Shown: in pieces, positions 40,309 through 41,931 of the stretch
Position numbering within the stretch: position 1 is the first letter of the stretch
How the letters are laid out: each line of letters begins with the position of its first letter
NCBI GenBank assembly: GCA_013376995.1
Contig: JACAAZ010000011.1
Span: forward strand, 69,332-133,331
From: Bacteroidota bacterium
GTDB lineage: Bacteria > Bacteroidota > Bacteroidia > Bacteroidales > UBA4417
Reading direction: 5' to 3'
Length of the DNA stretch: 64,000 nucleotides
The notes under the pieces: generated by a model
What the model saw: only the letters and a program-made list of their open reading frames with translations
The model's database searches: none
What the model was told of the DNA's origin: nothing
Made by a program: the position numbers and the translations under genes

Positions 40309-40560
40309 GGAAGCTGGAAGCCGGAAGTCGGAAGTCGGAAGTCGGAAGCCGGAAGCCGGAAGTCGGAAGCCGGAAGCCGGAAGTCGGAAGTCGGAAGCCG
40401 GAAGCCGGAAGTGGGAAGCCGGAAGTGGGAAGCTGGAAGCCGGAAGTCGGAAGCCGGAAGTCGGAAGTCGGAAGCTGGAAGCCGGAAGCCGGAAGTGGGA
40501 AGTCGGAAGTCGGAAGCTGGAAGCCGGAAGCCGGAAGCCGGAAGTCGGAAATCGGAAATA
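40309..40560. repeat. 36-unit heptanucleotide tandem array GGAAG(C/T)(C/T/G)
   Basis: 252 bp = 36 x 7; GGAAG core invariant in the first 34 units. Confidence 0.97.
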
Positions 40561-40581
40561 CAAATGTAAATACCTAACCTT

Positions 40582-40645
40582 TATAACGCCGAACCCTTAT
40601 AACGCCGAACCCTTATAACGCCGAACCCTTTTAACCCTAAACCCT
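40582..40645. repeat. 16-bp tandem repeat TATAACGCCGAACCCT x3 plus degenerate fourth copy
   Basis: 40582-40597, 40598-40613, 40614-40629 identical, then TTTAACCCTAAACCCT. Confidence 0.95.
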
Positions 40646-40731
40646 TCGAACATATAACAATAATTTGAACAACAACAGATAATCCGCCTCTTGCGGAAAA
40701 TTAAATTCACAACTATTAAATACGTTTTTGT

Positions 40732-41287: not shown

Positions 41288-41369
41288 GCGGATGTGGCGT
41301 AATTGGTAGCCGCGCCAGACTTAGGATCTGGTGCCGAGAGGCGTGGGGGTTCGAGTCCCTTCATCCGCA
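41288..41369 (+). tRNA. tRNA-Leu (anticodon TAG)
   Basis: GCGGATG/CATCCGC acceptor stem, CCAGA-CTTAGGA-TCTGG anticodon arm, long variable arm, GTTCGAGTCCC T arm; no encoded CCA. Confidence 0.97.
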
Positions 41370-41374
41370 CAAGA

Positions 41375-41405
41375 CAAATGCCTGCATTCGCAGGCATTTG
41401 TTATT
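41375..41405 (+). terminator. Hairpin/terminator downstream of tRNA-Leu (copy 1)
   Basis: CAAATGCCTGC ATTC GCAGGCATTTG, 11-bp perfect stem, then TTATT. Confidence 0.75.
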
Positions 41406-41511
41406 AAAGCGGATGAATGGACGAGAAGTTTATCCCGAACGGCATCAAAAGAAATAGTTTTGGAGTAAAAAGAGGACTGCCGATTCGGGGAGTCCCTTCA
41501 TCCGCACAAGA

Positions 41512-41542
41512 CAAATGCCTGCATTCGCAGGCATTTGTTATT
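41512..41542 (+). terminator. Second copy of the same hairpin
   Basis: Same sequence 137 bp downstream. Confidence 0.7.
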
Positions 41543-41931
41543 AAAGCGGATGAATGGACGAGAAGTTTATCCCGAACGGCATCAAAAGAAATAGTTTTGG
41601 AGTAAAAAGAGGACTGCCGATTCGGGGAGTCCCTTCATCAGTTATAAGGTTTCCTGAACAACAACATTGCGTATCCTAACCGGAATAACCATTCCGGAAT
41701 ACATACCTGATTGCTTTTAGTTTGAAAAGTAGCTGGTGAAATGAACAAAATCTGCATTTTCTCTCTTTAAATGTGATAGAGAAATTAGAATATACACGAT
41801 TAAAAAATGGTTGGGCAACTATGAACCCCCACGCCTATTTGCAAAACTTTGTCTTAATAAATAAGCTAAAGTCTATTTCTCTGTTAAATATTCCTTCTGT
41901 CAAACACCAGCTTAGTCTGAATATAATATAA

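Follow-up and report, generated by a model that had tools for sequence, protein, structure and literature searches.

Hairpin units with duplicated tRNA tails behind tRNA and tmRNA genes: an RtT-like tandem array in a Bacteroidota genome

Introduction

RtT repeats have long been regarded as peculiar to tyrT of E. coli, and we know of no account of them as mobile. In integron cassettes, a hairpin ends each unit, the bases that open the next unit complete its outer stem and asymmetric bases are left unpaired; these cassettes form head-to-tail arrays where some units carry genes and many do not. Short hairpins are also the hallmark of the CGTC-tagged REP superfamily, whose members bear an unpaired tag, occur in Bacteroidetes without a dedicated transposase, and are dispersed, often as head-to-head dimers (PMC3733652). 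The passages of that paper drawn on here mention no association of CGTC repeats with the 3' ends of tRNA or tmRNA genes.

Here we analyse an array behind a tRNA-Leu gene in a 64,000-nt stretch of a Bacteroidota genome (the window; contig JACAAZ010000011.1, assembly GCA_013376995.1). A first-pass annotation had described it as a 137-bp tandem duplication with tyrT-like architecture, and had proposed either an independent, smaller counterpart of the E. coli repeats or tandem att-site scars. As a whole, this interpretation is partly supported.

Results

A tRNA-Leu gene followed by two identical units

The tRNA-Leu(TAG) gene lies at 41288-41370 on the plus strand, as do the parts of the array described below (ARAGORN; Rfam RF00005, 56.3 bits), with A58 at 41354, C61 at 41357 and C74 at 41370. 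TRF reports a repeat at 41353-41639 (period 137, 2.1 copies, 100% matches, score 574), made of two 137-nt copies (41353-41489 and 41490-41626) that are 100% identical and of a 13-nt piece (41627-41639) that begins a third. The duplication read in the first pass, starting at 41354 and comprising two copies plus 12 bp of a third, is recovered in full. That start is A58 of the tRNA; position 41353 (R57) matches in the repeat only because the core, too, ends in G.

In every unit the tail of the tRNA-Leu (nt 58-74) is followed by a spacer containing a terminator-like hairpin, then by an arm that is nearly the full complement of that tail, by a core -GACGAGAAGTTTATCC...TTCGGGG- and, abutting it, by the next tail copy. 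In the first unit, the tail is the end of the tRNA itself (41354-41370, delimited by repeat boundaries that are equal in 40 other loci); the spacer (41371-41419) takes in the terminator-like hairpin (41374-41401) together with the outer stretch of the arm (inverted repeats I4 and I9; fold); and the core (41420-41490) reads GAC-GAGAAGTTTATCC-hairpin-GGGG and is matched by our covariance model, R1, at 41408-41505 with 49.2 bits. The second tail copy (41491-41507) is 100% identical to the first, and so is the second spacer (41508-41556), with its outer arm from 41546 and its hairpin at 41511-41538; the hairpin noticed earlier is present in both copies. The second core (41557-41627; R1 match 41545-41642, 48.2 bits) leads into a truncated third tail copy, AGTCCCTTCATC (41628-41639; repeat family D2). 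The first-pass annotation had overlooked the 14-nt arm GCGGATGAATGGAC (41409-41422), which is found in each unit and is complementary to the tRNA tail at 13 of its 14 positions. Arm, core and next tail copy are predicted to fold into a single long hairpin (-38.6 kcal/mol, z -5.2), and the entire 137-bp unit folds with a z of -8.1. An Rfam search with gathering and relaxed thresholds returned the tRNA and weak chance families, and nothing else.

Two further repeats lie in the neighbourhood. About 470 bp downstream, GAACCCCCACGCC (41823-41843; repeat I2) matches the variable loop and T-arm of this tRNA-Leu in inverted orientation. Upstream of the tRNA, before a thiol-peroxidase-like ORF, TRF finds a 7-bp tandem repeat, GGAAGCC, in about 35 copies (40309-40550) and a 16-bp repeat (40576-40646).

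Units behind many tRNA genes and tmRNA

The core is present at four loci of the same genome, each time beside the own tail of a different gene: tRNA-Leu(TAG), tRNA-Gln(CTG), tRNA-Gln(TTG) and the end of a contig, C33, which we read as a tmRNA locus because its tail is that of the tmRNA in a relative, G005. The first-pass annotation had suggested checking the copy number in relatives and looking for repeats anchored at the 3' ends of other tRNA genes. Units sit behind the same tRNA-Leu in five relatives (G002, G003, G004, G013 and G014), with no recognisable unit there in others, such as G001, G005 and G006. The pattern GRSGAGAAGTTTATCC matched 30 times across 398 genomes of the phylum, and its reversed control not once. 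In public genomes, a scan yielded at least 141 exact matches to the core on at least 120 stretches. Among the matches listed, a tRNA on the same strand ends within 400 nt upstream in 89 of 141, versus 0 of 141 for a tRNA on the opposite strand, and in 73 of 141 the core is followed by a copy of the tail of its own tRNA; the remaining listed matches are mostly in coding sequence or at contig edges. Most hosts among the matches listed are Bacteroidota; Patescibacteria, Chlorobiota, Lentisphaerae and Spirochaeta contribute single cases, in MAGs where binning errors are possible. With the covariance model (E <= 1e-4), units were found in 59 of 392 Bacteroidia genomes (about 15%). In another R1 search, most of the hits that did not match the core exactly were once more located behind the tail of a tRNA or tmRNA. 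The genes used comprise tRNAs for Ala, Arg, Asn, Asp, Gln, Gly, Ile, Leu, Lys, Met, Thr and Trp, as well as tmRNA, and unit length is 59-192 bp, almost all units being shorter than 200 bp. Hairpin units behind tRNA and tmRNA genes are a widespread class and apparently an undescribed one, the openly available literature that we searched containing no description of them.

Elsewhere in the genome of the window, truncated or palindrome-interrupted tRNA copies without the core lie downstream of tRNA-Pro(TGG), tRNA-Arg(ACG), tRNA-Leu(GAG) and tRNA-Ser(TGA) (loci L056, L075, L083 and L079), and several contigs of this assembly end, or show runs of N, at tRNA 3' ends.

The duplicated tail and a pairing rule

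We measured the boundaries of the duplicated segment in 40 loci with one unit, or using the last unit of an array. Agreement between the tRNA and its copy is 100% at nt 58 and 92% at nt 74, and goes toward background from nt 75. Since it is sharp at both ends, we take the 17 nt from A58 in the T-loop to C74 to be duplicated; R57 is assignable to neither core nor tail, there being a purine at that place in both the core and the tRNA. The GRS triplet of the core pairs with nt 59-61 of the tRNA in 59 of 59 non-redundant cases, a count for which the search pattern fixed G-R-S in the core and left free which R or S meets which tRNA. The pairs are GAC/GTC (31 cases), GGC/GCC (21), GGC/GTC with a G:T wobble (5), GAG/CTC (1) and GGG/CCC (1), and the A:C combination GAC/GCC never occurs. 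Pairing continues at nt 62-64 (92, 71 and 63%) and fades beyond. The excess of G:T over A:C at nt 59-61 (5 versus 0) suggests that it is the tRNA-sense strand that folds, although these numbers are small and the bias is gone at nt 62-64 (11 versus 11). Aligning 42 units gave 90.6% pairing in the two helices and a covariation score of 0.385, versus 0.217 in shuffled versions (0/500) and at most 0.177 in slid ones. We infer that this pairing plays a part in choosing the target or in folding the strand during insertion. A primer binding site of the retroviral type was considered as well, and rejected: the pairing peaks at nt 59-62 instead of the 3' end of the tRNA.

Empty sites, filled sites and losses

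One flavobacterial genus, that of G150, offers a comparison of occupied and vacant sites in the spacer between tRNA-Thr and tRNA-Tyr. G499, G506 and G518 have an empty spacer; that of G496, G150, G501, G505, G454 and G495 is filled, though in G495 most of the core is missing. The flank that follows the last tail copy in filled sites is the flank of the empty sites, and an outgroup, G494, has a similar flank and no spacer. The empty sites show that spacer and core are what is inserted, that the 17-nt tail is what is duplicated, and that precise losses occur. In trees built from the flank, G499 is sister to the filled G454, and G506/G518 to the filled G496, so that at least two precise losses make the simplest history, the polarity of gain and loss being drawn from a single locus of this one genus. 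Decay of the core or of the tail copy, with the tRNA spared, is seen in several filled genomes.

In the Thr case the spacer is foreign. In the genus of the window, the spacer terminator resembles the usual flank of tRNA-Leu, which fits local duplication as well as insertion; terminators already present at the site may thus have been captured or duplicated by some units. With spacers varying from locus to locus, conservation does not extend to most of the inserted DNA.

Larger units and the search for an enzyme

A few units bounded by tails are larger. Behind a tRNA-Leu of G126, tail and core enclose genes for an ImmA/IrrE-type protein, which is RmrA-like in PADLOC, and for a DUF4411/PIN protein, and in the tRNA-Asp arrays of G761, GIY-YIG units alternate with core units. 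Tail-bounded stretches with a KAP NTPase gene (G797) or, in G609, with OLD-like and ORF6N genes adjoin core units rather than being strictly inside them. A 138-aa ORF in a Patescibacteria unit has no convincing Pfam family match. No integrase was recognised in the larger units that we read, and ordinary units, at 59-192 bp, leave no room for one of their own. A RAYT/Y1 transposase was rejected as a partner, being absent from two carrier genomes and having no core near the Y1_Tnp loci examined. For a phage origin, the phage collection that we searched offered no support, as no match in it covers most of the 37-nt core.

GIY-YIG ORFs, often in tandem, are also found between a tRNA and its partial copy (L183, L383 and, in the genome of the window, L248 at tRNA-Val GAC, L250 at a tRNA-Val TAC tail at a contig end and L252 at tRNA-Asp), the partial copy having a perfect palindrome in its anticodon, variable or T-arm region. 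This arrangement is a second, related kind of tRNA-tail cassette, possibly with a homing nuclease. At one locus (L356, in G116 contig C16, 1526-1582, minus strand) the core replaces the T-loop of a tRNA-like pseudo-copy, directly before the apparent start of a broken GIY-YIG ORF, with an intact-looking GIY-YIG ORF just upstream.

The same plan in enterobacteria

The 178-bp rttR repeats behind tyrV in E. coli K-12 have a tail copy that starts at A58/N59 and carry an arm, GGGGAAGGAT, which is the complement of ATCCTTCCCC, followed by GAGAAG. The tyrT-like architecture perceived in the first pass holds, as both arrays share the tail start, the complementary arm and the GAGAAG after it. RtT units behind tRNA-Pro in Salmonella and E. 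coli have the arm GAGGAT for the tail ATCCTC, then GAGAAC, and their spacer contains a T-run terminator. Behind a Providencia tRNA-Lys, an RtT-like unit has the arm GTGCAGGT for the tail ATCCTGCAC (one base missing), then GAGAAG. In enterobacteria too, the arm varies with the tRNA. Repeats of the E. coli type are present in 4715 of 5426 genomes, with 1-10 (median 3) per E. coli genome that carries them, and in E. coli this architecture is annotated as a small RNA, RttR. The Rfam RtT model (RF00391) gave three E. coli hits and none in L009 or four other Bacteroidota loci (E <= 0.5), and R1 scored 4 bits on RtT. As for an independent, smaller counterpart, the window units are smaller (137 versus 178 bp) and may or may not be independent, the covariance models failing to detect each other's units.

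Discussion

We consider that the array is probably made of insertion cassettes of tRNA 3' ends, gained and lost through their tails. A small piece of DNA, consisting of a variable spacer, often with a terminator, and of a hairpin-forming core, would be inserted behind the tRNA, and nt 58-74 would become duplicated around it; the tRNA gene stays intact, as a complete tail is still fused to its body. The core would fold on one strand, most likely the tRNA-sense one, with the GRS triplet and the next few bases pairing with the start of the following tail (nt 59-64), the unpaired GAGAAGTTTA forming a one-sided internal loop and the inner hairpin standing above it. Direct tail repeats could then let units multiply in tandem, as in the window, or drop out precisely. 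Evidence for this comes from the tie to same-strand tRNAs whose own tails are copied, the sharp ends of the duplication, the triplet pairing and helix covariation, the empty, filled and precisely vacated sites with decay in some filled genomes, the larger tail-bounded units with genes, and the fit of both window units to R1. That no recombinase or transposase was linked to the units in our search for Y1 and our reading of the larger ones counts against this explanation, and so do the variable spacers, the likeness of the spacer terminator to the tRNA-Leu flank in the genus of the window, and the single locus behind the polarity of gain and loss.

Alternatively, the units could encode a functional RtT-like RNA, cut from the tRNA transcript and kept by selection, in which case the sense-strand pairing would be RNA structure. 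The covarying helices, the wobble asymmetry at nt 59-61, the RttR annotation and the frequency of the E. coli repeats are in line with this, as is the presence of some units within tRNA-Ile/Ala and tRNA-Thr/Tyr spacers, where they would be co-transcribed. However, a terminator-like hairpin separates the tRNA from the core in the window and at many loci, core or tail copy has decayed or been precisely lost in close relatives, the wobble bias is missing at nt 62-64, and few of the Bacteroidia genomes carry a unit at all; we find this explanation unlikely. It is rather improbable, too, that the units are attachment-site remnants of larger islands of the tyrosine-integrase type, deleted so as to leave their ends and the duplicated tail. 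Such insertions classically leave a copy of the tRNA 3' end that starts in the T-loop, and the KAP, OLD-like, ORF6N and ImmA/IrrE-PIN genes do lie in larger tail-bounded stretches at such sites, but an integrase normally has one site and here one conserved core goes with many tails and tmRNA; moreover, nearly all units are below 200 bp, those read have no identifiable integrase, and some islands adjoin a core unit instead of lying inside it. The att-site scars of the first-pass annotation are a partly correct idea: the 17-nt duplication and the precise empty sites are what a tRNA-targeted insertion leaves, but no integrase was found in the units read.

Ordinary tandem duplication, by slippage at the hairpin with arms made complementary through template switching (quasipalindrome correction), would account for identical tandem copies, for arms that match each local tail and for precise tail-to-tail losses. 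It leaves unexplained why unrelated tRNAs of different phyla have one conserved 16-nt core beside them and why the limits of the copy, nt 58 and nt 74, stay constant, and is very improbable as a full account, though slippage and template switching may be the source of changes in copy number and arm length. An assembly artefact, to which the identical copies and the N runs at other arrays of this assembly could point, is already refuted for the architecture, given units at the same tRNA in G013 and G002, the same plan in dozens of independent assemblies including isolates, and the pattern matches against an empty control; the N runs do make the copy number of the window array in the real genome uncertain.

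A broader proposal, which we put forward tentatively, is that cassettes anchored at tRNA and tmRNA genes form a system spanning several phyla, with a recombination or insertion site that would be a single-strand (DNA or RNA) hairpin pairing with the T-stem of the target, and that this system would mostly move empty hairpins, sometimes nuclease or defence-like genes, the RtT repeats of E. coli being its enterobacterial branch. The RtT plan (A58 tail copy, complementary arm, GAGAA) extends to other enterobacterial tRNAs, to many Bacteroidota tRNAs and tmRNA, and to some other phyla. Given also the empty sites and precise losses, RtT can be viewed as possibly one branch of a class that moves or recombines, which makes its origin testable, and the rule linking the triplet to nt 59-61 is a concrete and falsifiable clue to how insertion chooses or copies its target. 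In practical terms, such arrays break assemblies and add partial tRNA copies to annotations.

How do these units stand beside the systems already described? Like RtT, they stand in tandem behind a tRNA whose 3' end is present in every unit (window 41353-41639; E. coli array), and share an arm complementary to the tail directly followed by GAGAA, as seen in the window, E. coli, tRNA-Pro and Providencia tRNA-Lys. They differ in the sequence past GAGAAG, in the inner fold and in length, the RtT unit being longer. Judged by sequence comparison, it is supported that the window units are built like RtT, and not supported that they are RtT, since neither covariance model finds the other's units. With CGTC-tagged REPs they have in common the GACG of the core, which is CGTC on the opposite strand, and an inner hairpin that partly resembles dispersed palindromes. 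Those REPs have a stem of 8-9 bp, a loop of 4-5 nt and a terminal CGTC, whereas the inner stems here are of about 4-6 bp with loops of a few to tens of nt; and instead of being dispersed in many copies per genome, the present units are few, nearly all at tRNAs, tied to tRNA or tmRNA 3' ends in one orientation and with a tail copy. A dispersed REP was rejected on a separate count: in 11 genomes one inner-hairpin pattern has 9 sites, 7 of them in tRNA-Trp/tRNA-Thr arrays and 2 elsewhere. With tRNA-targeted integrative elements the units share a duplicated tRNA 3' end, a restored tRNA, precise empty sites and precise loss; they differ from those of the tyrosine-integrase type in their length of 59-192 bp without a recombinase, in combining one core with many tails, and in the use of tmRNA. 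We saw no integron integrase and recognised no attC consensus boxes (GTTRRRY) by eye. Still, as in integron cassettes, the bases that open the following unit complete the outer stem, here through pairs at nt 59-64, with the difference that the anchor is a tRNA and that the sequence of the stem varies with the host tRNA.
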